From NCBI GenBank assembly GCA_017428565.1, contig JAFRQP010000014.1, positions 1-64,000 on the forward strand: a DNA stretch of 64,000 bases, read 5' to 3'. The position numbers and the translations under genes were made by a program. The stretch is from Oscillospiraceae bacterium (GTDB lineage: Bacteria > Bacillota > Clostridia > Oscillospirales > Oscillospiraceae). Positions 44,572-61,066 of the stretch are shown piece after piece. The first letter of the stretch is position 1; the number at the start of each line of letters is the position of its first letter. Under the pieces are notes generated by a model, which was given only the letters and a program-made list of their open reading frames with translations, did not search any database and was not told where the DNA came from.

Positions 44572-45321
44572 TTACCAAAACGGGATCGGCTCATACCCCA
44601 GCAGCTCCCTCCCGTTGAGGATCCGCGCGGGGTTTTCTTCCAGGAGAAGTCTCGTGTAGCTTTCTCCCAGCTCTTCTATCAGATAGTCGCGCAGTTCCGC
44701 CATATAGGTGCTGCGCTGAAAGGGACTGTGGGCGTCGCTGGCCACACAGGCAGCCAGACCGTGCTCCAACAGCAAATGGGCCGTCGCCCTGGGCTCCGAG
44801 CCGAAGCGCCCCAGAATGCTGCCCTTGTTGAGCTGAAGCCCGTAGCCCAAGGTGCACCACTCGTAAGCGATATCCGGATCCTCCTGCACGAAGTCATAGC
44901 GTTCCGGATGGGCGATAATGGGCAGATAGTCCAGTTCCCGGCAGCGGCGAAGGATCTCCCGGCAGTAGTCCGGATCCTCCTGAAAGGCGAATTCCATCAG
45001 AAAATACCGGGTGCCGTTCAGCGTCCAGATTCTATCTGTCCGGAGAAGCTCCGGAAGCTCCGGCGTGGCGAAGATCTCCATGCCGCGGCAGAGGCGTATG
45101 GGGATCCCGGCCTCCGCCCGCTCCCGATCCAGGCGCTCAAAGAGCTCTGTGAGCTCCGGGCTCGCGTAGTTTTCATACTCGTCCGGGATATTGCAGTGGG
45201 GCGTAGCAATCAGCGTATGGACCCCGCTGTCAGCCGCGATGGCCAGCAGCTCCAGCGACTCCTCCATGCTCTGGGAACCGTCGTCCACTCCGGGAAGCAC
45301 ATGGGTATGAATATCGATCAT
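44572..45321 (-). CDS. PHP-type tyrosine-protein phosphatase (CpsB/YwqE family)
   Basis: A 249-residue metal-dependent phosphatase that removes phosphate from BY-kinase tails. Metal-binding motifs are MIDIHTHVLPGVDDG at the N-terminus, TPHCNIPDEY, IIAHPERYDF and VASDAHSPF. ATG 45321 is chosen because the conserved fold starts there; the frame is open further upstream into the ABC gene. It lies 11 bases after the ABC transporter and upstream of both kinases, giving a full phosphorylation switch in one operon. Confidence 0.92.
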   Translation of the reverse strand: MIDIHTHVLPGVDDGSQSMEESLELLAIAADSGVHTLIATPHCNIPDEYENYASPELTELFERLDRERAEAGIPIRLCRGMEIFATPELPELLRTDRIWTLNGTRYFLMEFAFQEDPDYCREILRRCRELDYLPIIAHPERYDFVQEDPDIAYEWCTLGYGLQLNKGSILGRFGSEPRATAHLLLEHGLAACVASDAHSPFQRSTYMAELRDYLIEELGESYTRLLLEENPARILNGRELLGYEPIPFW

Positions 45322-45332
45322 AGGCCAGTCTC

Positions 45333-47117
45333 TCAAAAATCCATGGACATGCGCCCGGACTCCTCTTCGCTCAGCTCCGTCACATGAGTCTCCATGACCC
45401 GATAGACCCGCTGGCAGAGGTTCAGCACCGTGGGCCGATGGGTCGTGACGATACAAGTCTTATTTGGGCGCTGTTTGACGATGTTGCGCAGCACCTGCCG
45501 CTCCGTTGCAACATCCAGAGCGGAGGTGGCCTCATCCAGCAGCAGGACAGGTGCGTCCCGCAGCACCGCGCGGGCGATGGCGAGGCGCTGAGCCTGCCCC
45601 TCGGAGAGGCCGCGGCCCCGCTCCCCGACCTTGCTGTTGATGCCCTCGGGGAGCTTGGAGACGAAGTCCCAGGCGCAGGCGATCTTCAGCGCCTCAACGA
45701 TCTCCTCGTCCGTTGCGTCCTCCCGCACCATACGCAGATTCTCCGCCACGGTGCCGGAGAGGATGGCGTTGCCCTGGGGAACGTAGGAGAAAAGCCCCCG
45801 GCTGTCCGCATTCACAGGAACCTCGGTTCCGTCGCCGGCGCGGAGGCAGGCCGTGCCCATGTCCGGATGCACCAGGCCCAGGATCAAGCGGATCATGGTG
45901 GTCTTCCCCTCGCCAGAGGGGCCGACAAGGGCCACGATCTCTCCCGGAGCCGCCCGGAAGCAGGAGCTGGTAATGACGCGCTTGTCCTCCGTATAGGAGA
46001 AGTCCACGCCGTCCATCCGCACCTCCAGCCCGCCGGAGGCGACAGCATCCAGCGCCTGGGTCTCCGGCAGGTGGCGCTCCCGGGGCAGCTCGATAAGCTC
46101 CCGGATGCGGTGTGCGGAGACGGAGCTGGTGAGAAAGCTCGGCACAATGCCGATCACGTTGTTGAAGGCATTGGCCAGGCGGACCCGCTGCTCCAGGAAG
46201 AGGGTCATGGTGCCGTAGGTGATCTGGTGGCCCCAGAGAAGGAAGAGGCAGTAGCCAAAGGCGGCGTACTGAACGACCAGGCCCAAGATCGACAGGAACA
46301 CATTGGTCTTGATGGTAAAAAGGTTGCATTCCAGGCTGATCTTCTTCATCTTCTGCTGCCAGCCGCGAAGCTTTTTGCCGTAGTTTTCCATCACGCCGAA
46401 GGACTTGATGGTGTCGAGATTATAAAAGGTCTCTACCTCAAAGCCCATCATCTCGCTGCCGGTCTCCTTGACCTTGCGGGCGTAATCCCGCTGCTTGCGG
46501 ATCAGGTACTTGGACATGAGCAGCATCACGGGGGCGCTGGCGAAGGCAAGCAGGGACATGACCTTGTTGTAATGCCAGATCAGCGCGAAGGTGACGATGA
46601 AGTTATAGAGCGAAATGATGATCGAGGGCAGCCAGGTGATAGCGTTTTTACTGACGGTGCTGACGTCGCTGTTGAAGCGGTTGAGCAGGTCTCCGCTGGA
46701 ATAGGCATTGATGGCCTTCCAGTCCACGTCGATGATCTGGTCAAAGATATCCGCCTGGATGTCGTTATTGATGTTGATGCTGAGCTTTGCGGAAATGCGG
46801 CTGATCAGGTTGGAAAACAGCAGGCTGAAGCCGGCGCTGCCCAACAGAATGGCGATCAGAAGACCAAGCTTGTCGGTCTTGTAGCCGGTAATGATATCGA
46901 TCAGCTCTTTGCCGGCCACGCTGGCGACCAGCGCAAAGCTGGTGCTGAAAATGCCGAGGAGCGTGTAAAAGACCACCGCCGTCTTGTGCCGCCGGGTATA
47001 GCTGAAGATCCAGCGCCAATCCTCCAGGATCTCCCGGAAGGTGCCTTCCTTCTTCCGCTGGCGCAGCGTATGGAGCGATTGGAAAAACGCCCGTTTTTCT
47101 TCTTCGGAGTGCTGCAT
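45333..47117 (-). CDS. ABC transporter, fused permease-ATPase (exporter)
   Basis: A 594-residue half-transporter: six-helix ABC_membrane domain (residues about 40-330) and nucleotide-binding domain with Walker A LVGPSGEGKTTM, Q-loop SYVPQGNAILSG, signature LSEGQAQRLAIAR (LSEGQ instead of LSGGQ), Walker B VLLLDEATSALD and H-loop TTHR. There is no C39 peptidase domain. As first gene of the operon it has its own promoter at 47155-47183. It could export a lipid, polymer or peptide; proximity to the 90-residue protein gene at 47429 leaves a peptide possible. Confidence 0.88.
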   Translation of the reverse strand: MQHSEEEKRAFFQSLHTLRQRKKEGTFREILEDWRWIFSYTRRHKTAVVFYTLLGIFSTSFALVASVAGKELIDIITGYKTDKLGLLIAILLGSAGFSLLFSNLISRISAKLSININNDIQADIFDQIIDVDWKAINAYSSGDLLNRFNSDVSTVSKNAITWLPSIIISLYNFIVTFALIWHYNKVMSLLAFASAPVMLLMSKYLIRKQRDYARKVKETGSEMMGFEVETFYNLDTIKSFGVMENYGKKLRGWQQKMKKISLECNLFTIKTNVFLSILGLVVQYAAFGYCLFLLWGHQITYGTMTLFLEQRVRLANAFNNVIGIVPSFLTSSVSAHRIRELIELPRERHLPETQALDAVASGGLEVRMDGVDFSYTEDKRVITSSCFRAAPGEIVALVGPSGEGKTTMIRLILGLVHPDMGTACLRAGDGTEVPVNADSRGLFSYVPQGNAILSGTVAENLRMVREDATDEEIVEALKIACAWDFVSKLPEGINSKVGERGRGLSEGQAQRLAIARAVLRDAPVLLLDEATSALDVATERQVLRNIVKQRPNKTCIVTTHRPTVLNLCQRVYRVMETHVTELSEEESGRMSMDF

Positions 47118-47183: not shown

Positions 47184-47368
47184 GCACTTTTCGGGAAATC
47201 GGCGTGAATTGAGCCGAAAAGGCGGGTCGCCGAGGGCGTCGACCCCTACACGGTGAGAAGAAATTGCGCCGCAACCAGGAGAAAGCCTGTTCAGATATAA
47301 ATGCGATGGAAGAGATTCTTAAAAAGCGATCTGGAGATTGCTCCCTGCGAGACACTCCAAGCGTGACG

Positions 47369-47401
47369 AAAAAACAGCGCGGAGATTGCTCTCCGCGCTG
47401 T
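47369..47401 (-). terminator. Terminator of the first giant-protein module
   Basis: A perfect 12-bp stem (47374-47385 with 47390-47401), 4-base loop, followed in the minus direction by six Ts. The hairpin sequence is identical to the one at 56032-56059 after the second module. Confidence 0.9.
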
Positions 47402-47428
47402 CTGCTTGAGTTTTCGATTCGGCCGGGA

Positions 47429-47701
47429 TCAAGGATTAGGATACAGGGGATCGTCGTTGAAGAGCTCCCACAGCTCCTCGGCCTCGTCGCCGAAGGAATT
47501 GATGAACCACTGACGGTAGTCGTCAAAGTTGGTCTGTCCGTCCCCGTTCACGTCGCTGGCGAACAGGTTCATCCAGTCGTTAAAATCGCAGGCATAGGGG
47601 TCCGTGGTCGACTGGCCCGTGCCGCCCCCGATAACCGTCGTCGGCTCTGGCGTCGGCATCGTAAACAGGATGCCGGGTGCAAAAATGTTATTCTTTGCCA
47701 T
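47429..47701 (-). CDS. 90-residue protein with dockerin-like loop, partner of giant protein 1
   Basis: No named family recognised. ATG 47701 follows AGAGGTGA; an in-frame GTG at 47710 lies in the ribosome binding site. Its N-terminus MAKNNIFAPGIL and VIGGGTGQSTTDPYACDF are shared with the paralogue at 56079. The second half has one dockerin/EF-hand-type calcium loop (DVNGDGQTNFDDY, ligands at 1, 3, 5, 9, 12) and an acidic tail ending YPNP. There is no signal peptide. It lies 30 bases after the giant protein and ends the transcript. It may be a modified peptide, a chaperone or a non-covalent subunit of the giant protein. Confidence 0.75.
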   Translation of the reverse strand: MAKNNIFAPGILFTMPTPEPTTVIGGGTGQSTTDPYACDFNDWMNLFASDVNGDGQTNFDDYRQWFINSFGDEAEELWELFNDDPLYPNP

Positions 47702-47731
47702 TTTATTCACCTCTTTCGTCTTTCCGGACCG

Positions 47732-50700
47732 TCAGGGATTGGTCGTGGTCGCTTCAAATACCGCGATCGTGGAAGCAACGCTCTGGGTCTGCACGCCGTT
47801 CTTTGCGCTAGTCTTCGTGCTGAGGTCCGAATAGGTGCGCGTGCTGGTGCCCGTGACGATCAGGCCGTCGGGGGTGACCCAGTACTGGCCGATGGTAACA
47901 CCGGTGCCCATGCCGTTGCTGCAGGCGCCGTTATTCATGACCTCCAGGTAGCTCAGGTAGCCGCCTGTCACGCCCTTGCCGCGGAAGATGTTTTCGGGTT
48001 TCAGGGTGACCTGGGCGCCGCCGACTGCATTTTCCACGGTCAGCGTGGAGCAGACATAGGCCGTCTTATCGGCAGTCTGGATCACGAAGCCGGTCTCCTG
48101 ATACAGCGCATCGTCGATGTCGGAGATCAGCCATGCGGAGCGGAGAGCCTGGTTGGCAGGATCTGTCTCCTTGAGGTAGGTAAAGTGGAAGTAGGGCTGC
48201 AGGTACTTGCTGGCCGGGACTTCCTTGATGTAGTAGACCGCGCCGGCTTCCGGAACCACGTGCATACCGTCGGCGCCGCCCTTTTCCGTCGTATAGGCGT
48301 TCGCCAGAGCGAAGACAGGAACCGTGCTGCCATCAGTGTTCTTGGACGTTCCGCCATAAGGCGTACCGGTGGTGTCAACCGCGCTGGAGTAGTAGCCCTT
48401 CTCCACCAGGGCCGTAACCTGCGCGTCGCCGTAGGGGTCGGCAGAATCGGTCGGCTCGACCCAGGCGATATTCGCATTGTTCTTGTCGAACTGGTCAGCG
48501 CTGCCCTCAACCGCCAGGCCCACGCCGGAGTAAGCGCTGTAGTAGCCGCCGTAGAGGAAGCCCTCGGTGGTGCGGCTGGCCAGGTCAATGGTGAACGCCG
48601 TGTTCGCTGCATTGGCGCCGCCCTGCGTAGAGGAGGTGGAGGCGCCGCTGCCCGAAATCACGATCCTCTCCACGGTGTTGTCGCCGGTGTGGTAGATGTA
48701 GAAGACCTTCCCCCAAACGGCGTACAGCGTGTGGTAGGGGGAGAACTCGTCAGCCGCCACATACTTGACGGTGACCCACTGCGGCTCGGACTCGCCCTGG
48801 CCCTCGCCGTCACGGGTGACGGGAGCCATGACCGCCCCGCTGGTGCCGGCCACGATGCCCTTGGTAACCTTCAGCGTCAGGGTGCCGTCGCTGTTCTCCG
48901 TCAGCGTGAAGGTGAGGATCGTATCCTTCGGCACAAAGAGCTTGTTGGCGTTCGATCCGTAATTCGTGGCGAGGGTCGCGGTAGTCGTGTCGAAGCCGAG
49001 CCAGCCGTTGGTGAAGTACCAATCGCCGATGCCGTTGGCGCCCTCAGGCATGACCGCAACATAGCTGTCCTGCTGGAAGGTCGCTACGAGCATGCCGTTG
49101 TGGAAGGCATATTCCTTGCCGTCATAGTCGGCACCGTTCAAGCTGCCGACCAGGTAATACTGCTTCTCCTCGGTGGGCTGCTCCTCAGACTCATCCACAA
49201 GCGCCAGGAAGCACTTGTTTTCGGGATCGTACTTCAGGAACAGATCCTCCTCGCCCAGCTCCAGATCCTGGGGCATGTTCGCGGTCTCTTCCACACGGGC
49301 CCAGCCCAGGAACACGTGATCCTCATAAATCAGATCCTGCGGAGTGGTAAGGGAACTGGCCCAGGGGATGTAGACGGTCTCTTCTCTGCTGATTTCCGCC
49401 TGAGGCATGGGGATCTGGATGATCTCGTTGATGGCGACATCTTCGGAATCCATCACGTCGCCGGTGCCGTTGTTGGCATGCCAGGTGATGTGGGTGGGCG
49501 CCGGACCGTCCACATCGCCCCATACAGCGCGCAGGGAGATGGTGTAGCGGAACTGCTGCTGACCGGTAATGTCATAAACGGGCTGGTTATTCTCGTCCAG
49601 AATGGGCTCCACATGGGCGTAGCTCGCATGGACACGGAAGGTCTCGCCGGGGTACTTGATGTACTCGTCGCCCTCCAGATCCTTGTAGCTCTGGGAGCTC
49701 TCGTCCCAGTACTGCACGACCCAGTAGAGGAAGTGCTGGGCGTGCTCAACGCCGTTTTCATCCACTCTGGGAGGAGGCACCTGGCTGGGTGCAGCCTGGG
49801 CCACGGCGTCGATATTGTCCTTATAGAGATGCAGGTCCTGCGGCGCGGGGTTGCCGCCGTTGGGGTCATAGACCACGCCGACGCCGGAGGCGCCCGGCAG
49901 GATCTCACTCCACTTGGCGTAGAGGTTCAGCATCCGGTACACGTAGGGACGGGAAAGGTCCTTGTTGACGGCGCCGGGCTTCAGATCGCCCCACTTATCC
50001 ATATCCGTGCCGTCGGCATTCTCCGTCTTGTACAGGTCCTTATCGTAGGGGGGATTGGTGGGAACGGTGTCGTCGTTGAGCTTGGTATCCACGGTGTAGG
50101 CGTTGTTGCCGCCCTCGTCAAGGTACCAGCCCAGGAACTCGTAGCCGGTGCGACGGCCGGTGGGCAGGGAGATCTTCGCGTCGTAGTCGACCTTGAAGTT
50201 CATCTGCTGGCTCTCGGAGCCCCAGTCCAGCGTGGTGTCGTTGGTGCCGTCAGCCTGATGGCCGGCCTGGGGGTGCAGGAACACGCGGTACTCGATCTTC
50301 TGCCACTTGGCATAGACCTGCACGCCGCCCAGAGGCATGGTGTTGAAGTTGTAGGGCACGTTGCAGGTGCTGTCAGCGTACCAGCCCATGAAGTAGTAGC
50401 CGGTGACGCTGGGGGTGTTGTACACGCTGCTTTCGGGATCGCCGTAGGCGGCAATGGAGGCGCCGTAGGTGATGGGATCAGACTCGCCGAAGCCCTGGGC
50501 CTGAGGCGTTTCATCGATGCGGCCCTGCTTGTCGAAGTAGGAACCGTCGGAGTACTTGATCTTGTAGGACAGACGGTCATAGCGGATGTAGAGGTCGCCC
50601 GAGGAAGTAGCAAGCTGGAATCCGTCCGTATCCGGATCGGCGTCATAGTAAAGATTGCCGTCATACTCTGTCAGCTCGCCGACATCGCGCCAGGTCGTAC

Positions 50701-53053
50701 CATTATCACTCCACTGAGTACACGCAAATCCGGTGTACTTATCATTGAGGTAGAAATTAATACCGCTGTTGCCGCCTGCGGCGATCTGATGCTTCTGGGT
50801 ATAGGAAGTCAGATCCGCATCCTGCTGATAGAAATGAACGTAATACGTACCACTAACAGTATTGCCGTAGTAGTTGACAATCATGGAAGTGCTGGTAGGA
50901 AGATAAGCGTCCAGGAAGGTCGTCCGCGTACCGCTGGTACCACCGTTATTGCCGCCATTCTCATACCAGTTATGGTCAGTAGGCCAATCATTGGCAGCCA
51001 GCGATGAGCCATAGAGGCCGGTCAGAGATTTTTGGATTCCCCAATGATAGCTCTGCCGGTTGTTTCTCGTGTAAACAGTTCCGTTGTATACTGTACCGTT
51101 TGCAGTATTGCTTGTCCTGAATGCACCATTGTTCCAATAAACTCTGGTTTTTGCCCCGTTTACATCACCGTATTTATTGGGGTTATTATCATTATCGTTA
51201 GTCGAAATTGTATAGGTATAGTCATATACATAGGTATTGAAATTCAACCGGACCATATTGCGGTTGTAGTAGATATTCACCACCGTGGTACCGTTGGGCT
51301 GGATCTCCACGTTCTGGTCAAAGTGGTCGCAGTGGAAGCCCAGGTACTCTTCCCCGCCGAACTCTTTCCAGCCGGAGACCACCGCGTTCCGGTAGGTGCC
51401 GTTGGCGTCGGTCACGTTGCTGCCGGTCTGGCTCACGGTATTGACGTTCGTCTTGGGCGTGCCGGTGAAGGTATTGGCCTCGCTGAAGTCATAGTCGTTG
51501 ACGGTGGTGCCGCCGGTGGTCTTCTGCTTCCAAACGACGACCGTGTAGGTCGCGCTGGGGGCGATGATCCACTTGGCATAGACCACGGTCCGGTCGGTCA
51601 GCTCCTGGTTGAAGTTGAACTCCGCGCCGTTGGGATCGTCGCCAACATTGGCGGGGGCGGGATCGCTCAGATACCAGCCGGCGAAGGTGTAGCCCAGACG
51701 CTCCATATTGGCAGGCAGCGTCTTATCCGGCCGGACAGAGGCCGCGGTCTGGCCCTTCTTGACGAAGACAGGGGCGTTGTAGGTCGCGTTCTTGCCGTTC
51801 TCGTCAAAGACCAGCCAGTTGCCTTCGGAGATCTCGGTGGACATCCGCACGTCGCCGGAGATGTTCATCGTGGTGTTCTGGGGATAGGGCTCGGACACAG
51901 CCGTACCGTTGAGCTTGGCGTTGGAAATGTTGCTGCTACCCTGCAGAACGTTCCAGCCCTCGAAGTGATGATACTCATCCGTCGCGTTGTAGGTCTGGGT
52001 GATCGTGTAGGGCGCGGACGTGTCGTTGATGGAGCAGAGCACGTTGTCCGTCGCCAGGGTGATGCCGAATTTGTCCTCGTAGGAAACCGTGAACACGTTG
52101 AAGATCATGGCATGGCAGTTCAGGACGTCGCCCTCGGTGATGGGCGTCCGGTCCAGCAGCACGCAGATCTGCGGGATCGTCATGGGCGTGGTATTGTTGT
52201 TGTAGTTCGCGCCGACAAAGAAGTTGCCCGTGTCCTTGATGCCGCTGGCTCCCGACACGTCAAGAGACCAGCCGAGGAACAGCTGTCCGTCGTCCAGATT
52301 GCCGCCGATACCGGGATCGTACACGATATCGTCAATGTAGGTCTTGCCCTGCTGACGCTCACCGTCGCCCAGGAGCAGGTCGCTGTTCTTCACGTAGACC
52401 GTGGCGACCAGGCTGTTCCCGTTGTAAAAGTTTACGGTGATACGGGCCTCAGGATCGATCTCGCCGTTGTCCACCACCGCGTAGACGGAGAAGTCGCCGG
52501 ACTCGAAGCAGATCTCGTTGGCGCCCAGCTTGAAGGTCAGCTCCTCCTCGGGGATCAGCTCAATGGTCTCGGGCTCCGCCTCGTCGGGGATATGCACCAG
52601 GGTCAGGTCACTCCTGCCGTCCAGCTCGGGCGCGGCGATTTTGACGCGCACGGGCTCTTCCGGCTCGATCTCAATATCATCCAGCCAGAAGGAAATGTCC
52701 ATGGCGACCAGGACGTTGGACTCGTAGCCCAGGACTTCGTCCACCACATCGCGGACGTCCTCCACAGAGACGGGAGTCACGCGGACCTCCGCCAGAAGGG
52801 GCAGAGAACCCATGGGGGCCTCTACGACGACATTGATGCCGCTGTCCTCGTCAAAGGCCGAGAAGTAATCGTACTCCTCTGTCTCCTCGGGCTCGACCTC
52901 GGGCTCAAAGTCCCGAATGTCGTCCTCGCCGATGTCACGGCCCCAGCCGTTCCCGACGCCGACGTCGCCCCAGGCGAAGGCCGGGGTGGACACGGACAGG
53001 AACATGACAAGGGTGAGGATCAGGGCGAGAAACTTGGTCATTCTCTTACTCAT
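47732..53053 (-). CDS. Giant secreted InlB-repeat surface protein (module 1)
   Basis: A 1773-residue protein. The signal peptide (residues 1-30) ends in STPAFA before WG. Residues about 30-215 form an N-terminal module shared with the paralogue at 56387 (FSAFDEDSGINVVVEAPMG, NEICFESGDFSVYAV). From about 260 many InlB/Listeria-Bacteroides repeats follow (GYTFAGWYL, GYYFMGWYAD, GYEFLGWYLDEGG with YAKW ends). A second shared module begins near 1450 (FYIYHTGDNTVER) and runs to the end. There is no LPXTG or C-terminal membrane helix, so anchoring is unexplained. ATG 53053 follows AAGGAGGT. Confidence 0.88.
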   Translation of the reverse strand: MSKRMTKFLALILTLVMFLSVSTPAFAWGDVGVGNGWGRDIGEDDIRDFEPEVEPEETEEYDYFSAFDEDSGINVVVEAPMGSLPLLAEVRVTPVSVEDVRDVVDEVLGYESNVLVAMDISFWLDDIEIEPEEPVRVKIAAPELDGRSDLTLVHIPDEAEPETIELIPEEELTFKLGANEICFESGDFSVYAVVDNGEIDPEARITVNFYNGNSLVATVYVKNSDLLLGDGERQQGKTYIDDIVYDPGIGGNLDDGQLFLGWSLDVSGASGIKDTGNFFVGANYNNNTTPMTIPQICVLLDRTPITEGDVLNCHAMIFNVFTVSYEDKFGITLATDNVLCSINDTSAPYTITQTYNATDEYHHFEGWNVLQGSSNISNAKLNGTAVSEPYPQNTTMNISGDVRMSTEISEGNWLVFDENGKNATYNAPVFVKKGQTAASVRPDKTLPANMERLGYTFAGWYLSDPAPANVGDDPNGAEFNFNQELTDRTVVYAKWIIAPSATYTVVVWKQKTTGGTTVNDYDFSEANTFTGTPKTNVNTVSQTGSNVTDANGTYRNAVVSGWKEFGGEEYLGFHCDHFDQNVEIQPNGTTVVNIYYNRNMVRLNFNTYVYDYTYTISTNDNDNNPNKYGDVNGAKTRVYWNNGAFRTSNTANGTVYNGTVYTRNNRQSYHWGIQKSLTGLYGSSLAANDWPTDHNWYENGGNNGGTSGTRTTFLDAYLPTSTSMIVNYYGNTVSGTYYVHFYQQDADLTSYTQKHQIAAGGNSGINFYLNDKYTGFACTQWSDNGTTWRDVGELTEYDGNLYYDADPDTDGFQLATSSGDLYIRYDRLSYKIKYSDGSYFDKQGRIDETPQAQGFGESDPITYGASIAAYGDPESSVYNTPSVTGYYFMGWYADSTCNVPYNFNTMPLGGVQVYAKWQKIEYRVFLHPQAGHQADGTNDTTLDWGSESQQMNFKVDYDAKISLPTGRRTGYEFLGWYLDEGGNNAYTVDTKLNDDTVPTNPPYDKDLYKTENADGTDMDKWGDLKPGAVNKDLSRPYVYRMLNLYAKWSEILPGASGVGVVYDPNGGNPAPQDLHLYKDNIDAVAQAAPSQVPPPRVDENGVEHAQHFLYWVVQYWDESSQSYKDLEGDEYIKYPGETFRVHASYAHVEPILDENNQPVYDITGQQQFRYTISLRAVWGDVDGPAPTHITWHANNGTGDVMDSEDVAINEIIQIPMPQAEISREETVYIPWASSLTTPQDLIYEDHVFLGWARVEETANMPQDLELGEEDLFLKYDPENKCFLALVDESEEQPTEEKQYYLVGSLNGADYDGKEYAFHNGMLVATFQQDSYVAVMPEGANGIGDWYFTNGWLGFDTTTATLATNYGSNANKLFVPKDTILTFTLTENSDGTLTLKVTKGIVAGTSGAVMAPVTRDGEGQGESEPQWVTVKYVAADEFSPYHTLYAVWGKVFYIYHTGDNTVERIVISGSGASTSSTQGGANAANTAFTIDLASRTTEGFLYGGYYSAYSGVGLAVEGSADQFDKNNANIAWVEPTDSADPYGDAQVTALVEKGYYSSAVDTTGTPYGGTSKNTDGSTVPVFALANAYTTEKGGADGMHVVPEAGAVYYIKEVPASKYLQPYFHFTYLKETDPANQALRSAWLISDIDDALYQETGFVIQTADKTAYVCSTLTVENAVGGAQVTLKPENIFRGKGVTGGYLSYLEVMNNGACSNGMGTGVTIGQYWVTPDGLIVTGTSTRTYSDLSTKTSAKNGVQTQSVASTIAVFEATTTNP

Positions 53054-53175
53054 GCTTGCTACCTCCTTGAAAATGGGCGCATTGTGCGCCCGTTGATTAC
53101 GGAACACAATATGTAGAATACCGGGGGAGCAGCATCTTCCTCAGACGCACTCCCAGCCATATTCATACATACTAT

Positions 53176-53203
53176 ATATTACACAATTTTTGTGTGAAGT
53201 CAA
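53176..53203 (-). promoter_or_regulatory. Promoter of module 1 with internal dyad
   Basis: Minus strand: -35 TTGACT (53198-53203), 16-base spacer, -10 TAATAT (53176-53181). The spacer contains a perfect dyad, ACACAA-TTT-TTGTGT (53181-53195), placed where a repressor could block polymerase. The AATATATAGT next to the -10 is shared with the promoter of module 2. Confidence 0.7.
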
Positions 53204-53254
53204 GCTTTTTATAACATAATATTCTAAAGGATCCGCTTCCTTTTTTTGGCGGCG

Positions 53255-53294
53255 CAAGCGCAGCCGGGGCTCAAAAAGCCGTCAGCTGCGCTTG
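53255..53294. repeat. Inverted repeat after the nucleotidyltransferase gene
   Basis: Arms CAAGCGCAGC (53255-53264) and GCTGCGCTTG (53285-53294) with a 20-base loop. The T-run lies on the plus-strand side (53295-53299), opposite to the flanking genes, so its use as a terminator for the minus-strand operon is uncertain. Confidence 0.55.
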
Positions 53295-53319
53295 TTTTTC
53301 CTGTTTAATTGCCCGAAAA

Positions 53320-54528
53320 TCAATCCAATACGCCGTAGTGCCGCAGGAGGGCAACACGCTCCTGCCCTATATGCAGGCTCTTTGTCGGCGCGCGGTTTTT
53401 GGTCGTGTAGCGCAGAATGCGCTGCGTCCAGGCCACGGGAAGAAGCCACGGGCGTTTTTGCAGATAGGGAAAGCGGACAGACATGGTCTTTGCGTCGGGA
53501 AAGAGCGCTTTGAGCAGGCCATGCCGCCGCCGCCCCTGCCGATCCGCCGCCACGGCGTCCAGAGTCAGGGCGCTGCTGTGCATCCGGTCCAGATCCTCCG
53601 CGCCGTAAAGGCCGCCGGCGAGGCAGTCCTGCAGCAAAGGCCCCTCCTCCGGGTCCAGATCCGCGAAGCCGGCCGGGCCGGGAATCGCAAGATGCCGCTC
53701 CCCTATGCGGAAAAATGCCGCGGCAAGGGTCTCGATCTTCAGGTCCTCGCAGCTGCCGCGAACGCGGGCCCAGTCGATCTCCGAGCCATAGCGCCGGGCA
53801 AAGAGGCAGATATCGCAGATCTGGCGAAGCCCCACGCCGCCATAGAGGATATGCTTGTAGGCGTGGCAGAGCAGATACTGCAGATGATCCGTGGGGCAGA
53901 GCGTATCGATGCTCTCCCCGTAGAGCCGCAGCGCGGTCCGACGGGAAAAAGCGCCGTCCACGCAGGCGTTGCAGTCCCCATAGGCGTCGGAATCCGGCGC
54001 AAAGGGGAGCTTGTGCAGCTCCACATACAGGTCGCGGTCCGGGTCCACATAGGTGACCTCGTAGTCCTCCTCCGGCGGCTCCTCCGGCTTCAGCAGGCGC
54101 AGCCCGCAGGCCAGCAGCGCTTCATGGTATGCCCGGAAGTCCTCCGGCGGGATCAGAAGATCCTCATCGGTGGAGGGGCGCTGCTCCGGCTCCGGGTACA
54201 GGCTGCGGCACACGGCGCCCTTGAGCACCAGGGGGCGCAGGCCGCGCCGGTCCAGCTCCCGCAGGAGAAGCAGAAACTCCCCCGTGCGGACGGCCTGGCG
54301 CATGGTGATCTGCCGCGCCTCGCGCCGCATCGTCGCAAGCACCGAGGAGTCCTTCACGGCGGGGCAGCCGTCAAGCGCCTGGGCGATCAGCGGCGTCAGC
54401 GCCTGGGCTCTGGCCAGGCGGGCCAGGGATTTTTGCGCAGAGAGATCCGGGGACTCCGTCCAGGGGAGCGGCGTCCCTGTCACAGCGCAGCGAAGCGCTT
54501 CAAACAGAAGGATCTCTGCAGTTTTCAT
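53320..54528 (-). CDS. NTP_transf_5-type nucleotidyltransferase
   Basis: A 402-residue protein resembling the uncharacterised nucleotidyltransferase family PF14907. The signature is RPLVLKGAVCRSLYPEPEQR followed by PSTDEDLLIP, giving the catalytic KG and DxD-like residues, then HAYKHILYGGVGLRQICDIC. Relatives occur in some lasso-peptide and other peptide-modification clusters beside HPr-kinase-like genes. It is the last gene of the four-gene operon, 7 bases after the small membrane protein. What it nucleotidylates is unknown; the giant proteins, their partners or their glycans are candidates. Confidence 0.82.
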   Translation of the reverse strand: MKTAEILLFEALRCAVTGTPLPWTESPDLSAQKSLARLARAQALTPLIAQALDGCPAVKDSSVLATMRREARQITMRQAVRTGEFLLLLRELDRRGLRPLVLKGAVCRSLYPEPEQRPSTDEDLLIPPEDFRAYHEALLACGLRLLKPEEPPEEDYEVTYVDPDRDLYVELHKLPFAPDSDAYGDCNACVDGAFSRRTALRLYGESIDTLCPTDHLQYLLCHAYKHILYGGVGLRQICDICLFARRYGSEIDWARVRGSCEDLKIETLAAAFFRIGERHLAIPGPAGFADLDPEEGPLLQDCLAGGLYGAEDLDRMHSSALTLDAVAADRQGRRRHGLLKALFPDAKTMSVRFPYLQKRPWLLPVAWTQRILRYTTKNRAPTKSLHIGQERVALLRHYGVLD

Positions 54529-54535
54529 CCGGCGA

Positions 54536-54817
54536 TCAGAACCCGTCGGATTCCTCGTCCTCGGGGATGGTGATGATCAGGTCCCCTTCGCTTTCGATGA
54601 GCTGGGCGGACTCGGTACTCGCCTCTGCGGGCTCCTCGGCCAGCTCCTGCTCCGCGTCCTGAGCGGTTTCGGCAGACTGAGCGGCTTCCACGGGAGTGTT
54701 CTCCTTCGCCTCCTCCCCAGCGGGCGCATCGCCGCCGGAGCAGCAGAGCCAGATGATCAGCGCCGCCGCCACCAACACCAGTGCAGCAACGAGGATCCAA
54801 AGCTTTTTCTTATTCAT
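54536..54817 (-). CDS. Small membrane-anchored acidic protein
   Basis: A 93-residue protein not matching any family I know. MNKKKLWILVAALVLVAAAL is a single N-terminal helix ending IIWLCCSGG, possibly a lipoprotein-like site. The rest is an extracytoplasmic, Glu/Ala-rich tail ending ITIPEDEESDGF. It overlaps the PqqD-like gene by 8 bases and lies 7 bases before the nucleotidyltransferase. Its size, position and tail make it a candidate substrate, membrane anchor or assembly factor of the system. Confidence 0.7.
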   Translation of the reverse strand: MNKKKLWILVAALVLVAAALIIWLCCSGGDAPAGEEAKENTPVEAAQSAETAQDAEQELAEEPAEASTESAQLIESEGDLIITIPEDEESDGF

Positions 54818-55106
54818 TCTTTTGTTCTCCTTTCCGCAGCAGATAGCCATGCTGCAGCATCTGTTCCAAAAAACTGTCGATCGCTTTCCGCGCTTCCGGT
54901 TCCGCGATCTCATATTCCTCCAGCACGGCGCGAAGCAGATCCTCCGCCGCCGCGCCGTCTTCCAGCTTTCTCCACAGAAACGCGGAGCTCTCGTTGAGCT
55001 GCGTCATGTAGGGGCAATGCTCCCGGGCCGCCTTCGCCGCCAGCAGCATATGCTCGCCGCAGATCGAGGTCAGCACCACGCCGGGTCTGGTCACGTAGCG
55101 ATCCAT
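54810..55106 (-). CDS. PqqD-family protein (RiPP recognition element-like)
   Basis: A 98-residue PqqD-like protein, the winged-helix fold that binds leader peptides for modifying enzymes. The pattern matches the family: MDRYVTRPGVVLTSICGEHM, then LNESSAFLWRKLEDGAAAED and a helical end LLRAVLEEYEIAEPEARKAI. ATG 55106 shares one base with the kinase stop (TGATG). Pairing with an HPr-kinase-like gene and a nucleotidyltransferase is typical of peptide-tailoring operons. No dedicated cyclase or protease is present in the operon. Confidence 0.85.
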   Translation of the reverse strand: MDRYVTRPGVVLTSICGEHMLLAAKAAREHCPYMTQLNESSAFLWRKLEDGAAAEDLLRAVLEEYEIAEPEARKAIDSFLEQMLQHGYLLRKGEQKNE

Positions 55107-55846
55107 CAAGCCTCTCCCCTTTCTTTCAGCTCCGCGAGCAGCGTTTCCCGCAGCAGCTCCGTGGAGGCGTCGTCGCCCAGGTTTATCAGCTTCCATGCCG
55201 GCGCCGTCCGCAGCATTCGCTCCAGCAGCGCCGCCATGGCATAAAGCTCCTCCTCCGTCTCCGGCAGCGCCATAAACTGCTGCAGCAGCGGACTGACGCC
55301 CTCCCGGGGCGAGAGCGGGGCGATCCGGTTCTCCCTCCCCTGCTCCAGCAGCACCAGGCCGCCGAGGGGCGCGGAAGTCCGGGAAAAGAGGTTTTCTTTC
55401 CCGTTCCAGGGGCTGAAATGGACCCAGACGGAGCCGTCCTCCCGCGTTTCCAGCGCGGGCATATCCCCGGAGATCATGGTGATTTCCCCAGGGTGCAGCC
55501 GCTGCCAGTTGAGAAATTGGGTAGTCTTGCCAGTTTCGGGCGGCGCCGTCAGCAGCCAGGCGCGATCCCGCCAGGCAAAAGCCGCCGCGTGAAACACGCA
55601 GCCGCCATAGGGCAGCAGCGCCCGCGCCGTCAGCTCGATCAGACAGCGATACTCCACGTAAGCGTCAGACGAATCCGGAGGCAAAAAGTTCCGCCCCAGC
55701 TCGATCTTTTCCGGCGTCACCGCGATGTCGCAGTCCTCTCCCTCCACCCGTCGGGGCAGCGGGTTCAGCAGAAAACGCGTCCCCGGATGCAGAAAGGCAT
55801 AGCGCAGCGGATGACCCGCAATCGTCATTTCATAGATCTGGGGCAT
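55106..55846 (-). CDS. HPr kinase-like ATPase
   Basis: A 246-residue P-loop protein similar to HprK-related kinases found with PqqD proteins. The Walker A-like site is APPETGKTT (residues 101-109), preceded by HAAAF (His86) and followed by TMISGDMPAL (Asp128). It lacks the N-terminal domain of true HprK, so phosphorylation of HPr is unlikely; relatives in lasso-peptide clusters phosphorylate the peptide. AAGGAG lies 8 bases before ATG 55846. First gene of the four-gene operon. Confidence 0.82.
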   Translation of the reverse strand: MPQIYEMTIAGHPLRYAFLHPGTRFLLNPLPRRVEGEDCDIAVTPEKIELGRNFLPPDSSDAYVEYRCLIELTARALLPYGGCVFHAAAFAWRDRAWLLTAPPETGKTTQFLNWQRLHPGEITMISGDMPALETREDGSVWVHFSPWNGKENLFSRTSAPLGGLVLLEQGRENRIAPLSPREGVSPLLQQFMALPETEEELYAMAALLERMLRTAPAWKLINLGDDASTELLRETLLAELKERGEA

Positions 55847-56031
55847 CGGGCGAACTCCTTTCCGCGCGGCGCGCTGATATCTAACAATTTATTATATCAT
55901 CTTTTTCCCGGAAGCACAAGAGGAAGCTGGGGTGCAACGGCAACACAGCCCGCCATCCTCCTTGGGTAAACCTTGGCGGAAAGGTCGAAACGAGCTCGGA
56001 AACGCGTGTACGCCTCCCCTTCCCGATGAAA

Positions 56032-56059
56032 ACAGCGCGGAGATTGCTCTCCGCGCTGT
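56032..56059 (-). terminator. Terminator of the second giant-protein module
   Basis: The same 12-bp stem and loop as at 47374-47401, followed by four Ts in the minus direction. It lies 20 bases after the small-gene stop, upstream of the HPr-kinase-like operon. Gene-free sequence 55860-56031 shows nothing further, and no clear promoter for the operon was seen. Confidence 0.85.
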
Positions 56060-56078
56060 TTGGGTTGTTCTACGGTTT

Positions 56079-56354
56079 TTAAGGAAACGGATCCGCGGGA
56101 ATCGTGCCGCCGTTGACCAGATCCCACAGTTCTGCCGCTTCATCGCCAAAGGTGACGTAGAACCAGTGGATATAGTCATTATTGTCGATTCCGTCTCCGT
56201 TGTAGTCCTGGGCGAACAGATTCGACCAGTCGACAAAATCGCAGGCGTAGGGGTCCGTGGTGGACTGGCCCGTACCGCCGCCGATGACCGTCGTCGGCGA
56301 AGGATCGGGGATCATCAGCAGAATCCCGGGTGCAAAAATGTTCTTCTTTGCCAT
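56079..56354 (-). CDS. 91-residue protein with dockerin-like loop, partner of giant protein 2
   Basis: Paralogue of the gene at 47429. MAKKNIFAPGIL, PTTVIGGGTGQSTTDPYACD and WSNLFAQD are kept; the calcium loop is DYNGDGIDNNDY, one residue shorter than a dockerin loop, then FGDEAAELWDL and the end DPFP. The single Cys is conserved. ATG 56354 follows AGAGGTG; ATG 56360 is too close to it. It lies 32 bases after the giant protein stop, with the same upstream sequence (GAAAGACGAAAGAGGTGAAT) as the first pair. Role as for its paralogue. Confidence 0.75.
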   Translation of the reverse strand: MAKKNIFAPGILLMIPDPSPTTVIGGGTGQSTTDPYACDFVDWSNLFAQDYNGDGIDNNDYIHWFYVTFGDEAAELWDLVNGGTIPADPFP

Positions 56355-56386
56355 TTTCATTCACCTCTTTCGTCTTTCTGTCCCGA

Positions 56387-59300
56387 TCAGGGATCAGACG
56401 GCAATTCTCCACCTCCGGGGGCCGTGACCGTCGTTGCTACCGTCGTATCTGTCTTGCCCAGATTATTCTTGTTGTCCAGACCGGCATAGGTACGGGACGT
56501 GGTGCCGGTGACGATCAGTCCGTCGGGTGTGATCCAGTACTGCAGGACCCGCTCTGCCTCGTCCATCAGGGTCGGGCTGCCGTCCTTCAGAACCTGCAGA
56601 TAACTCAGATAGCCGCTCTTGACGCCGCGGCTGCGGAAGATGCCCTCGGGCTTGAGAAGCACCGTGGTGCCGCCGGATTGCGTGGTCTTCACCGTCAGCG
56701 TCGAGCAGACTCTCGCCTCATCGTTTTCACTTACAATGATGAAGCCGGTCTCCTGATACAGGCAGTCGTCAATGGCGGAAATCAGCCAGCCGTCATAGAT
56801 GTCGAAGGTCTCTTTGCTGTAGGTGTAATGGAAGTAGGGCTGCAGGTACGCGGTGGGCACTTCCTTCAGGTAGTATACCGTGTTCGCCGCGGGCACCATC
56901 TCAAAGCCGTTCACCGTCAATGTCGCGGAAGAACTCCAGGCGCCGCGGTTGGAATCCCGGATATACTCAGTGCTGTAAGCCGTGCCGTCCGCATCCTTGG
57001 GCGGATTCGCCTTATCGCTGTAATCCAGAGCCTTCGCGGCGTTTGCGTCAAAGCCCGAGGTCTTGCCGGCGTAGTCGCTGTAGTAGCCGCCGTAGAGCGT
57101 GCCGTCAGCGGTCAGCGAAGCGATATCAAAGGTCTTGTCCTCGCTGTACACAACGCCATCCGTGGCGAAGGGGAAGCGCTCCAGGGTGCAGTCGCTGGAG
57201 TGATACACGTAGAAGAAGCCGACGAACCTGTTGGAATAATACACCCTGTAGTCGGAGTTGGAGGCGTCGATGGAGCCTTTGACGATTGCCGGGTTGTCTT
57301 CATCGGGATTCACAACGCCCGCCGTGGCTGTTTCACCGGCTTTGTTGCAGTGGGCCGAGGTGGTAACGGTATTGAGCACAAATCCATCCGGCAAGTCTTC
57401 CGTAGGCTCTTCGATGGTATAGCTTGTATTCTTTGTGATACTGGTGAAGCAGATCCTCCAGCCGGCCTTGATCGAAACCGTGACGGTACGTCCGTTTTTG
57501 ACGTTATCAAAGCTGTAGTAGCCGGTGTAGTACGAATAATAGGTGTAGTTATGCGTGGTCGGAGTGCCCTCATTGTCTATGGTCTCCGTGCCCGTATGCT
57601 GCTGCAGATCCACCGCTTTGACGGTGTAGGTCTTGGAATTCTTGGTGTACGTGATGTAGGGGCAGGGATGCGTATCGTCCGCAGCGTGGGTCTGAATGTT
57701 GCTGATTGTGCTGTCGTCCGTCCTCAGCTCACCGATCTCGGCAGTAGCCCCGTCGACCACAAGTCCGTCCTCCTCCCACACGATCGTGCCGGGAGCCGGA
57801 TTCTCGGGATCGAGGAAATTCGCAGCCGTGGTAGCCAGGTCGCAGTAATTGTTGGGGTCGTTCAGCACGACGAACCAGAAGGTATGATAATCCGAATTGT
57901 ACTCTTCGTCGCCAACGTAAGGAGTCTTCTCGTTCTCCATGGTGACTTCAAAGGTGAACAGCTCGTCCTCAGGGGCGTCGTCGCCGGTGACCGTCTTCGC
58001 GATCTGCAGATTGCTTCGACGGTCGTTATCTGCTCTCAGGATGTTGGTAGCGCCGTCCGTCTGCACGTAGAGCTTGTTGTCGAACTTGTAATACCACTTT
58101 CCGCCGGCCTGGATCCGCTTATTGTTTTCCAGATTCTTGGCCGCAGCGGGGAAGTCGGGCTTCGCCTGATCCTCGTCCGTCACCAGGATCAGCATGGTAT
58201 TCTCCGCGTTGACGACCATGGGATGGTACACGTAAGCCGTCAGGTCCCAGTACCAGGGGGAGCCGTCGTTCTCAATGACCGAGTAATCGTGGCCGGTGGT
58301 ATTCATGGTCAGATTGTTCTGATCATCCACCGTCATGATGCCGCAGGAGATGTAGAGATCCACGTCGGGCTCCTGCTTCCACTCATGTTCACCGATCTTT
58401 ACAGGGCTGCCCATCACCACGTCCATATAGTGTTCCCCGTCTCTGGTGATGGTCAGGGAGATGTCCTCGGCTGCCAGGGCGTCCAGGTCGTTGTGCCAGT
58501 ACTTGACGATGCCGATGGTCTGGTCTTCCAGCACCATAGCGCCGGATACAAGGCCGTGTTCGGGAGGATCGTTGTATTCCTGGCCATCGTACTCATAAGT
58601 CGTATACAGGTGGGTATTGGTCAAGATGTTGTAGTATACCGCATTCTCATCCTGCTGAAGCGCCGCATTGATGGCAACCAGGAAAGCATCCGTCGAAGCA
58701 TAGGTTGTTGTCCCATTGCTCCAGGTGCCGGTACCCTCCGTCGCACCGGGGGTATAGCCGTAGTCGCTGCCGTTCAGGGTGACGACCATCTGCTCCAGCG
58801 TGGCGTCATCCAGTTTGTCCAGCGTCCAGCCCGGCATTTTGTTGTTCAGGTTCGCCAGCAGGTCGTAGGCCTCCTGGCTGGGCCAGACGTCAAAGGTGAT
58901 CGTGTAGATCGTCTCATCCGCCAGAACGCCCGCGTCGGACAGGTCCCAGGTCACGCCGTTGGAGGAGGAATAGCCGGCGCTGGGAGCGTCCTCCCAAACC
59001 TCCGTCTTGTAGTAGATCCTGTTATGACTCTCATCCTCCACATAGGTATATCCGGGTTCGACGGAATAGTTCGCCGCATTCCGGTCAACCGCGCCGGCCA
59101 CGTTGCTGGCCGCCACATAAGCGGTCACGGGCTGACCCTGATCGTCCTTGTAGGTGTAGGAGTATTCTCCGGCATGGGCGCCCTGGGTGACCAGCGTAAG
59201 AGGATAGGAGATGTAATACTTGTACCCGCCGGCCTGGCCGCTGACAGAAGCGCTGACGTCGGCAAGCTGAGGGATGCCGTCGTCCGCGGTGACGTTGCTG

Positions 59301-61066
59301 GCACCCAGGTCGTTGACGATGGTGGTGGCGATGCCCTGGAACGCGGCGTTGATCTCAGCTTCATTTGTCGCCGCGATCGTCTCCTCGCCGCCCGCCGTGG
59401 TGATCAGAAGCTCCAGACGTTCCTGGCCCGAGGAGCTGCCGCAGAAGATGCCGTACAGCTTGGCGCCTCTGGTTACCATCTCGTTGGCTTCATCCTGGGC
59501 ATTCGTAACCGCTTCGTCATAATGGTTGAATTCGTTATTCGAGTAGTTATAACCGACCCAGCGGTTCGGGTCGCCGTCCGTTACGAAGATGATATAGGTT
59601 TTGTTCGCGTTGAGGATCGTATTGTTTGCGTTCTGCGCCTCATCAAGCAAAATCAGGCCTTGGTCAAGGCCGATCTCCCAGTTCGTACCGGCCGAGTTGT
59701 TCTGAGGACTCAAATCGTTGCTGTTCGTATAGGCAAGCATCGTTTGTTTGTCCTGCGTCCAGTGGGTCAGGCCCGAAATGGAGTTGTTTCCCCAGGAATG
59801 CAAAGAGCCATTTAAGTTGAAAATGGCAAAAGCCAGGTTGATCGTATTGACGTCCGGATCCAGGGTATTGATCAGCGTCCTCAGTGCCGGGCGCATAAAG
59901 TCAATACGCTGCTGGTCAGAGTTGGAATTCGCCCCGGGGTCCGTACCGTCCATGAGATACCGCATACTCTTGGTGTTATCAAAGACGATGATGACGTTCG
60001 CACCGACCCTGGTCTCCGTATGGTCCACCTGGCCGGTGATATCCAGCCGGATCTGATAGGTGCCGTCTCCGTTGGCAGAGACGTGCTTGTCCGTAATGGG
60101 GCCCTTGACCTCAACCGGCGCCGGAGAGGGCGGCGTGTAGCCGGCTCCCTTCGGGCTGTAGAAGGCATAGATGTCCGTTACGCCCTCCAGCGTACGGGTC
60201 TCGATCAAGACCTGCTCGTCCTCCCCTTCGCCGGAAGTCACTCTCACCTGCATGGTCCAGGCGGTCCCGTCCTCCGTCGTGACTTTGGTCAGGATCGAGG
60301 AAGCCAGCTCGACACGCACGCCGTCCGCCTCATAATACGCGCCGGTATACTCGTAGTCCTCAAAGCGGACGTTCAGGTTCATGCTGGCGGCGCTGGAGTC
60401 CAGAGAAACGGTGTCGTCAAACTCCGTAAAGCTCCCCCCGTTCAGCGTGCCAAAGTGGATGTTCGTGGTTCCGCCGGACCAGGTGACCGCGTACACGGAG
60501 AATTCGCCGGACTCGAAGCAGATCTCGTTGGTGCCGAGCTTAAAGCTCAGTTCCTCCTCGGGGAGCAGATCAAGGGTCTCGGGCTCCGCCTCGTCGGGGA
60601 TGTGCACCAGGGTCAGATTGCTCTTGCCCTCCAGCTCGGGCGCGGCGATTTTTACGCGCACAGGCTCCTCCGGCTCGATCTTAATATCGTCAAGCCAGAA
60701 GGAAATATCCATGGCAACCAGGATCTCCGGCTCGCCCTCCACCACGGAGTTCACCGCGTCGCGGATCGCCTCCGCGTCCACAGGCTCCACGCGCAGCTCC
60801 GCCAGCAGGGGCAGAGAACCCATGGGAGCCTCCACAACAACATTGATGCCGCTCTCTTCATCGAAGGCCGAGAAGTAGTCGTACTCCTCCTTCTCTTCGA
60901 TCTCCCCTTCCGGTTCGAAATCCCGAACCTCGTCCTCGCCGATGTCGCGGCCCCAGCCGTCTCCGATGCCGATGCCGCCGCCCCAGGCGAAGCCCGGCGT
61001 GGAAACCGACAGGAACATGACCAGCGTGAGGATCAGGGACAGCACTTTGATCGTTCTCTTGCTCAT
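56387..61066 (-). CDS. Giant secreted VWA/pilin-like surface protein (module 2)
   Basis: A 1559-residue paralogue of the protein at 47732. The signal peptide ends STPGFA before WGG. Residues about 30-215 repeat the shared N-terminal module. A von Willebrand A domain follows (about 350-560) with MIDAS IVFDNTKSM and YIIFVTDGDPNRW. Then come a Cna-B-like segment (IVKYWHNDLDALAAEDIS) near 855 and a pilin-like segment (LQIAKTVTGDDAPEDELFTF) that may form an isopeptide bond. The shared C-terminal module begins near 1284 (FFYVYHSSDCTLER). There is no LPXTG. ATG 61066 follows ATAGGAGGT. Probably an adhesin. Confidence 0.88.
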   Translation of the reverse strand: MSKRTIKVLSLILTLVMFLSVSTPGFAWGGGIGIGDGWGRDIGEDEVRDFEPEGEIEEKEEYDYFSAFDEESGINVVVEAPMGSLPLLAELRVEPVDAEAIRDAVNSVVEGEPEILVAMDISFWLDDIKIEPEEPVRVKIAAPELEGKSNLTLVHIPDEAEPETLDLLPEEELSFKLGTNEICFESGEFSVYAVTWSGGTTNIHFGTLNGGSFTEFDDTVSLDSSAASMNLNVRFEDYEYTGAYYEADGVRVELASSILTKVTTEDGTAWTMQVRVTSGEGEDEQVLIETRTLEGVTDIYAFYSPKGAGYTPPSPAPVEVKGPITDKHVSANGDGTYQIRLDITGQVDHTETRVGANVIIVFDNTKSMRYLMDGTDPGANSNSDQQRIDFMRPALRTLINTLDPDVNTINLAFAIFNLNGSLHSWGNNSISGLTHWTQDKQTMLAYTNSNDLSPQNNSAGTNWEIGLDQGLILLDEAQNANNTILNANKTYIIFVTDGDPNRWVGYNYSNNEFNHYDEAVTNAQDEANEMVTRGAKLYGIFCGSSSGQERLELLITTAGGEETIAATNEAEINAAFQGIATTIVNDLGASNVTADDGIPQLADVSASVSGQAGGYKYYISYPLTLVTQGAHAGEYSYTYKDDQGQPVTAYVAASNVAGAVDRNAANYSVEPGYTYVEDESHNRIYYKTEVWEDAPSAGYSSSNGVTWDLSDAGVLADETIYTITFDVWPSQEAYDLLANLNNKMPGWTLDKLDDATLEQMVVTLNGSDYGYTPGATEGTGTWSNGTTTYASTDAFLVAINAALQQDENAVYYNILTNTHLYTTYEYDGQEYNDPPEHGLVSGAMVLEDQTIGIVKYWHNDLDALAAEDISLTITRDGEHYMDVVMGSPVKIGEHEWKQEPDVDLYISCGIMTVDDQNNLTMNTTGHDYSVIENDGSPWYWDLTAYVYHPMVVNAENTMLILVTDEDQAKPDFPAAAKNLENNKRIQAGGKWYYKFDNKLYVQTDGATNILRADNDRRSNLQIAKTVTGDDAPEDELFTFEVTMENEKTPYVGDEEYNSDYHTFWFVVLNDPNNYCDLATTAANFLDPENPAPGTIVWEEDGLVVDGATAEIGELRTDDSTISNIQTHAADDTHPCPYITYTKNSKTYTVKAVDLQQHTGTETIDNEGTPTTHNYTYYSYYTGYYSFDNVKNGRTVTVSIKAGWRICFTSITKNTSYTIEEPTEDLPDGFVLNTVTTSAHCNKAGETATAGVVNPDEDNPAIVKGSIDASNSDYRVYYSNRFVGFFYVYHSSDCTLERFPFATDGVVYSEDKTFDIASLTADGTLYGGYYSDYAGKTSGFDANAAKALDYSDKANPPKDADGTAYSTEYIRDSNRGAWSSSATLTVNGFEMVPAANTVYYLKEVPTAYLQPYFHYTYSKETFDIYDGWLISAIDDCLYQETGFIIVSENDEARVCSTLTVKTTQSGGTTVLLKPEGIFRSRGVKSGYLSYLQVLKDGSPTLMDEAERVLQYWITPDGLIVTGTTSRTYAGLDNKNNLGKTDTTVATTVTAPGGGELPSDP

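Follow-up and report, generated by a model that had tools for sequence, protein, structure and literature searches.

A candidate variant of linear polyphosphorylated peptide biosynthesis encoded beside giant exoproteins in an Oscillospiraceae bacterium

Linear polyphosphorylated peptides (LPPs) are ribosomally synthesized and post-translationally modified peptides (RiPPs) described by Popov et al. in May 2026 (PMC13381572). In that paper, LPP clusters are defined by an SpI peptidase, a RiPP recognition element (RRE), an HprK-like kinase, an NTP transferase, and an MsbA-like exporter. SpI does the cleavage, the kinase LppK phosphorylates the core residue Ser3, and the roles of LPPs and paeninodins are stated as unknown. 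In pseudomycoidin biosynthesis, according to a review, PsmK phosphorylates and PsmN is needed for the addition of a hexose (PMC9266682). Here, we analyzed a window of 64,000 nucleotides (nt) from an Oscillospiraceae bacterium (assembly GCA_017428565.1, contig JAFRQP010000014.1, positions 1 to 64,000), in which two giant secreted proteins, each followed by a small protein, lie around an operon coding for a kinase, an RRE, a membrane peptide, and a nucleotidyltransferase-like enzyme. Our results suggest, with a probability of roughly 0.6, that this locus is a variant of LPP-type RiPP biosynthesis that serves surface exoproteins.

The proposed precursors are small1 (47429..47701, minus strand), a protein of 90 amino acids (aa), and its paralogue small2 (56079..56354, minus strand, with the ATG at 56354 or 56360). 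The two proteins are 69% identical, with a 168-nt block of their genes alike at 82%. The relatives of small2 in genome G006 are 81% and 80% identical to it. Among the small proteins compared, the majority start with KK or similar residues followed by [F/Y]xxP or FxP, and this N-terminal motif, of RRE type and reading FAPGIL in small2, is retained although the proteins otherwise diverge. In small1, T28 and the following G-Q-S31 resemble T-1 and the following A-Q-S3 of LppA and might mark a site of cleavage and phosphorylation; the site is shared by no more than the four closest small proteins and was not counted as evidence.

The RRE of the window operon (54810..55106, minus strand, 98 aa) is a discrete PqqD-like protein (Pfam PF05402, E 7e-14), and its family profile matches LppB (9x8z, 5e-6) and TbiB1 (2e-7). 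In the LppB structure, D70 forms a hydrogen bond with the leader tyrosine, and the proline kink is held by N33 (PMC13381572). The RREs were aligned to LppB via the family profile, and the columns of both residues were read in 36 loci. The Asn column is retained except in L042, L047, and L070. The residue in the D70 column covaries with the leader aromatic, as Tyr occurs with Asp 19 times and Phe with non-Asp 12 times, against no case of Phe with Asp and two of Tyr with non-Asp (Fisher p 2.6e-7 overall, not corrected for shared descent). Outside the window clade the corresponding counts are 18, 5, 0, and 0 (p 3e-5). Left out of this table are copy a of L048, whose motif is ambiguous, L084 and L112, which lack an aromatic, and L142, where no motif was seen; all four are non-Asp. 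The RRE of L155 was matched to its precursor by genome rather than by locus. One copy at L048, in the window clade, has both sides switched, with a Tyr leader and an Asp; outside the counts, L058 combines the leader KKKRNYVSP with an Asp in the adjacent copy, as expected. The window operon's own RRE lacks this Asp, the partner of a leader Tyr, as do other Phe-leader RREs. Because the leader aromatic covaries with the D70-equivalent residue, the small proteins appear to be ligands of the RRE, and the covariation is the best evidence for this predicted binding. To judge from their sequences, the small proteins are probably precursors, an assignment that is well supported, while the chemistry and the attachment are what we infer.

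The grouping of these genes was compared in 41 genomes of the genus, where a kinase at least 42% identical to that of the window was taken as close. The kinase is present in 19 of the 41 genomes and a close one in eight, namely the window genome, G006, G013, G023, G019, G062, G034, and G027. The C-terminal module shared by the two giants (type A) was found in seven genomes, all with a close kinase, and 9 of its 10 places adjoin the kinase, so the search for co-occurrence proposed in the earlier note came out in favor of a linked system. The tenth place (G006:C50) is a lone giant-small pair next to serC, with the kinase and RRE on another contig. The module of G019 is more diverged (25% identity to giant1), being missed by the module search and visible in the alignment. 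A giant, small protein, kinase, and RRE occur together in G013, G023, G019, G062, G034, G027, and G006:C45, and most of these groupings also hold the NTP gene and the membrane peptide, which are swapped in G034 and G027. Wherever the giant is in view, the small gene lies directly 3' of it (twice each in the window and G006, and once in G013, G023, G019, G062, G034, and G027); a single-sequence search detected the small protein in 3 of 60 related genomes. Thus, the pairing of giant and small protein with kinase and RRE is conserved in the genus.

Beyond the genus, the type-A module was found in 3 of 394 genomes of an order-level sample, the window's genome included. In G359, a giant with the module is followed by a 63-aa gene, the kinase, and the RRE. 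The three module matches in G274 are weak (E 7e-7 to 5e-6); a short canonical-type precursor comes directly after at least two, and no kinase follows any of them within the stretch read. Scanning GTDB contigs for the kinase family, with the best 80 of 108 loci kept, added L056 (Ruminococcaceae RUG12339), which has the same order as the window, including the exporter, CpsB, and chain-length-type genes, and L057 (Oscillospiraceae RGIG7997), which begins within the small gene and continues with kinase, RRE, membrane peptide, and NTP gene. At L047:8505-9400 (G062:C51), small protein and kinase are separated by roughly 900 bases full of short interspersed repeats, which show up as repeated peptides in the translations. 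L058:3112-11021, on a contig filed as Bacteroidales UBA4293 and of uncertain origin, holds two kinase/RRE copies and, by eye, a radical-SAM-like gene and an NTP protein apparently fused to an RRE, with an exporter close to that of the window nearby.

On the minus strand of the window, the order of transcription is giant2, small2, a hairpin, kinase, RRE, membrane peptide, NTP_transf_5, giant1, small1, and a second hairpin. The kinase and RRE genes share 1 nt, the RRE and membrane peptide genes share 8 nt, and 7 nt separate the latter from the NTP gene. The hairpins 3' of small1 (47374..47401) and small2 (56032..56059) resemble intrinsic terminators and are identical letter for letter, with two matches in the window and none in 100 shuffles. 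This bears out the layout described in the earlier note, two giant-small pairs with the same hairpin around an overlapping four-gene operon, and the hairpins suggest three transcription units, giant2-small2, the putative operon, and giant1-small1. Downstream of small1 lie an MsbA-like ABC exporter (45333..47117, minus strand), outside the operon and the proposed counterpart of LppD, and the first of the polysaccharide genes, coding for a CpsB/CapC-like phosphatase (44572..45321, minus strand; PF19567, E 4e-58), followed by chain-length-type genes. This region is syntenic in G013, G023, and G019, where the exporter is 78-80% identical and in the same place.

The LppK/PadeK-like kinase (55106..55846, minus strand, 246 aa) has no Pfam match at E 0.1, and its family gave only weak P-loop matches among solved structures. 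Its residues H86, K107 of the P-loop, and D128 are invariant in all rows of both alignments, and it is 34% identical over residues 52-220 (E 9e-21) to the kinase of the SpI-bearing locus G000:C16. The LppN/PsmN-like NTP_transf_5 protein (53320..54528, minus strand, 402 aa; PF14907, E 3e-46) has an RPSTDEDLLI region (R...D.D.LI) invariant across seven aligned sequences. The single-pass membrane peptide (54536..54817, minus strand), a proposed membrane-fixed partner, has an acidic linker and a C-terminal tail ending in GDLIITIPEDEESDGF. Its C terminus LIITIPEDEESDGF resembles, without matching exactly, the tail ELPIIPAAEDGESDFG found on a G030 precursor, and it has no match to small1 or small2.

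Giant1 (47732..53053, minus strand, 1773 aa) and giant2 (56387..61066, minus strand, 1559 aa) are predicted to be secreted, the N terminus of giant2 being signal-like by eye. They are alike at their N termini (a 300-nt block at 83% and a 105-nt block at 85%) and 46% identical across the last 330 residues, and unlike in the middle, where giant1 has List_Bact repeats and giant2 has DUF7604 (E 2e-7) and a sub-cut-off DUF7601. Their C termini, inspected by eye, end in ...FEATTTNP and ...PGGGELPSDP and show no sortase-type LPXTG motif, hydrophobic stretch, or basic tail. The end GGGELPSDP of giant2 (window 56387-56420) and the end GLPITP of the G006:C50 giant (L043) have the xLPxxP form of the tail proteins described below, a form absent from the ends of the remaining aligned giants; TLPADP lies within the G006 small proteins and TIPADP within small2. 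All of these resemblances were noticed post hoc. A von Willebrand A-like stretch, VIIVFDNTKSM, is visible by eye in giant2 (56387-61066) and was not reported by Pfam.

In other Clostridia, canonical LPP precursors also tend to stand behind large exoproteins. They were located by profile searches, and ten genomes were picked for holding such loci. In these, 22 of 27 precursors start no more than 100 nt downstream of a gene, and 14 of the 22 upstream genes code for at least 400 aa, compared with 41 of 163 control genes (at least 100 aa). The share of upstream genes with a signal peptide (8/22, vs 26/163 in controls) was given no weight, as the called start of several genes lay too far inside. 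Of 14 precursor loci in the genus, seven are directly 3' of an exoprotein (L235, L236, L240, L241, L242, L244, and L245); the gap is 268 nt in L238, a linker protein lies in between in L237, and L239 is at a contig end. The scanned exoproteins of L235, L236, L238, and L240 differ in front (Cna_B/List_Bact, cohesin, subtilase, and BspA repeats) and have in common a C-terminal module of some 130 residues (type B), and in three of the four the precursor follows within 20 bases. The type-B module occurs at 30 places in 11 genomes, picked for holding such pairs, and 14 of the places are seeds. Among the 16 non-seed places, a precursor is next in five, in two of which (L266 and L271) the module match stops before the protein end, and only a membrane-linker protein is present in three.

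Many precursors have as neighbors small lipoproteins or single-pass proteins with a long linker, and at some loci precursor and linker protein have matching tails, such as PIELPLVPLR (L191), IELPVIPI (L190), ELPFVPA (L193), and GL[N/E]WSPLTPI (L198). The form xLPxxP ends 10 of the 18 tails listed, which were chosen by hand; it was seen in 8 of 68 precursors and at 13 of 1187 control C termini, at least 4 of these 13 being tails of this kind. Tail sharing reached the smallest attainable p, about 0.02, in 4 of 17 precursor-linker pairs (52 linker open reading frames, ORFs), and fell below 0.01 in 4 of 18 against 1274 C termini, with a filter that missed some linker proteins. Tail sharing is therefore present in some loci and absent in others. 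Several loci stood out for other reasons. In Ruminococcus flavefaciens Y1 (L195:8010-8780 and L191), an exoprotein, a 31-aa precursor, a lipoprotein with the tail IELPLVPLR, and a second precursor follow one another in a repetition that resembles a duplicated cassette. An orphan LPP-like precursor (L247:8400-8537, G030:C7) lies by serC/serA, a neighborhood matching that of giant2, which is near serC in the window. L070:6159-12679 (Ruminiclostridium cellobioparum) codes for an NTP protein, an RRE, a radical-SAM-like protein (by eye), two short KxYxxP-type peptides, an HprK-like kinase, an SpI-like peptidase, and an exporter, a possible radical SAM/LPP hybrid. At L157:4238-6136 (G006:C34), a 46-aa LPP-like precursor adjoins an RRE and a protein of 454 aa that looks radical-SAM-like by eye, with no kinase called in that stretch.

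We therefore take the small proteins to be modified by the operon through LPP-like chemistry, and the giants to be their partners and not substrates. The earlier note had placed the modification on either the small proteins or the C-terminal module of the giants; the leader-aromatic/RRE covariation supports the former, and no evidence was found for the latter, the RRE motif sitting in the small proteins. The RRE would bind the small protein at its N terminus and hand it to the kinase, which would phosphorylate a Ser, as LppK and PadeK do. The NTP_transf_5 enzyme would then cap or glycosylate the phosphate, as reported for PsmN, and the MsbA-like exporter would secrete the product. These four steps together are likely. 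Outside the cell, the product would work with the co-encoded giant, most plausibly as an adaptor holding it on the capsule or wall. This last step is tentative and may well prove wrong, and the surface-adaptor role, although unproven, is the most likely purpose.

Several observations weigh against a variant of LPP biosynthesis. By tblastn at E 1e-5, all 15 window-type stretches, that of the window among them, are without an SpI match, whereas 55 of 76 other kinase loci (L060-L135, among the best 80 of 108) have it and 50 of the 76 show the LPP arrangement of SpI and RRE together. Relatives of the SpI of G000:C16 occur genome-wide in G000, G006, G062, and G027, on other contigs, and were not found in G013, G023, G019, and G034 (stated completeness 95% for G023 and 94% for G034). 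Without SpI at window-type loci, leader cleavage is unexplained, and the leader may be either retained or cut by another protease. The small proteins have the aromatic-xxP start only and not the full LPP leader motif YxxPxVLxHQxIxFETxxS, a comparison of profiles ties them only weakly to canonical precursors (probability 2.8%, P 0.016), and no Ser is common to all those aligned. Inside the window clade alone the covariation is not significant (p 0.22), and both Tyr/non-Asp exceptions (L049 and L050, near-identical loci counted as two) belong to this clade. Neither NTP gene nor membrane peptide was seen in G006:C45, and no membrane peptide in G019; L059, whose kinase is fairly close (41%), has an RRE and NTP gene and no recognized giant or small protein, and L058 has small ORFs and no recognized giant. 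The type-A and type-B modules have no detectable homology, and for 8 of the 16 non-seed type-B proteins no precursor or linker protein lies within 420 nt, so the type-B module is wider than the pairing. The window kinase has Gly-Asp where many LPP kinases show Asp-Asp, and the review leaves open whether PsmN itself or a host enzyme adds the hexose (PMC9266682). Gly-Asp was also considered as a mark of the window clade and rejected, since it occurs in at least ten kinases with SpI nearby.

Other explanations were weighed against the same data. The small proteins might be secreted signals or bacteriocin-like RiPPs that came to lie behind the giants through transcription read-through and insertion behind surface-protein genes. 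The patchy gain and loss of LPP and paeninodin clusters, which the discussion of the LPP paper calls typical of biological conflicts (PMC13381572), would fit, as would the 4 of 14 precursor loci in the genus without an adjoining exoprotein (L243, L246, L247, and L248). The constant position of the small gene directly behind the giant, and the unrelated subtilase, BspA-repeat, Cna_B, and cohesin exoproteins that each precede a precursor, speak against this and make it rather unlikely. The NTP_transf_5 enzyme could instead join the peptide phosphate to the neighboring capsular polysaccharide, with the exported peptide-glycan as docking site for the giants. The cluster does adjoin polysaccharide genes (CpsB, chain-length) in the window, G013, G023, G019, and L056, LPP clusters have been found in capsule loci (PMC13381572), and the hexose of the phosphopeptide requires PsmN (PMC9266682). 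On the other hand, lppN could be deleted in the heterologous host without a change in any detected product (PMC13381572), and no polysaccharide genes follow the operons of G062, G034, and G027 in the fetched sequence (the G034 and G027 contigs being short); we regard this explanation as unlikely. More improbable still is a role of the small protein as chaperone or dockerin-like subunit of the giant, with an operon that acts solely on other peptides, such as the canonical precursors that the window genome has at C19 and C93, since the EF-hand/dockerin-like loop seen by eye in many small proteins (one in small2) is set against the N-terminal motif, the RRE covariation, the lack of a Pfam dockerin (PF00404) or any other family in small1 and small2 at E 0.1, and the operon and small protein of G013, G023, G019, and G034, which are without SpI or, at E<=0.1, a canonical precursor.

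If the LPP-variant reading is right, the recurrent pairing with large exoproteins offers LPPs a concrete, testable role at the cell surface and would tie RiPP chemistry to the surface architecture of rumen and gut bacteria. In addition, the covariation (Tyr/Asp versus Phe/non-Asp) provides a simple rule for finding precursors that a Tyr-based leader motif misses. It is conceivable, if doubtful, that LPP-type machinery is a surface-assembly system in gut Clostridia, in which exoproteins with a type-A or type-B module are co-encoded with their own modified peptide, and this peptide, probably phosphate-linked to glycan, and membrane-fixed xLPxxP-type tails are alternative docking points. The terms surface, secreted protein, lipoprotein, Clostridi, and Ruminococc are all absent from the main text of the LPP paper (PMC13381572), and a literature search covering titles and the starts of abstracts did not find LPP precursors paired with exoproteins.

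Compared with paeninodin and pseudomycoidin (PadeK, PsmK, and PsmN), the window likewise combines a kinase and a nucleotidyltransferase-like enzyme that would act on the precursor of an RRE-bearing pathway (PMC9266682). It differs in its long precursor and in the absence of a lasso (macrolactam) cyclase and B2 peptidase from the 10 proteins of 44572-61066 covered by the Pfam scan, the rest of the window not being family-scanned. The earlier note knew of no described system with this composition, a claim that needs correction because published LPP clusters share the HprK-like kinase, discrete RRE, NTP transferase, and MsbA-like exporter (PMC13381572), and also the aromatic-xxP leader start, the polysaccharide-locus setting, and a precursor of 35-200 aa. 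Window-type loci are set apart from LPPs by the lack of SpI, by mostly Phe rather than Tyr leaders with the matching RRE Asp lost, by precursors of about 70-110 aa, many of them EF-hand-like, and by the membrane peptide and the giant exoprotein partner. In sortase and PEP-CTERM sorting, diverse secreted proteins with a common C-terminal module are encoded beside dedicated machinery. Unlike these, the giants of the window show no sortase motif or hydrophobic C-terminal anchor, and they are paired with a separate small protein that comes with a RiPP-type operon.

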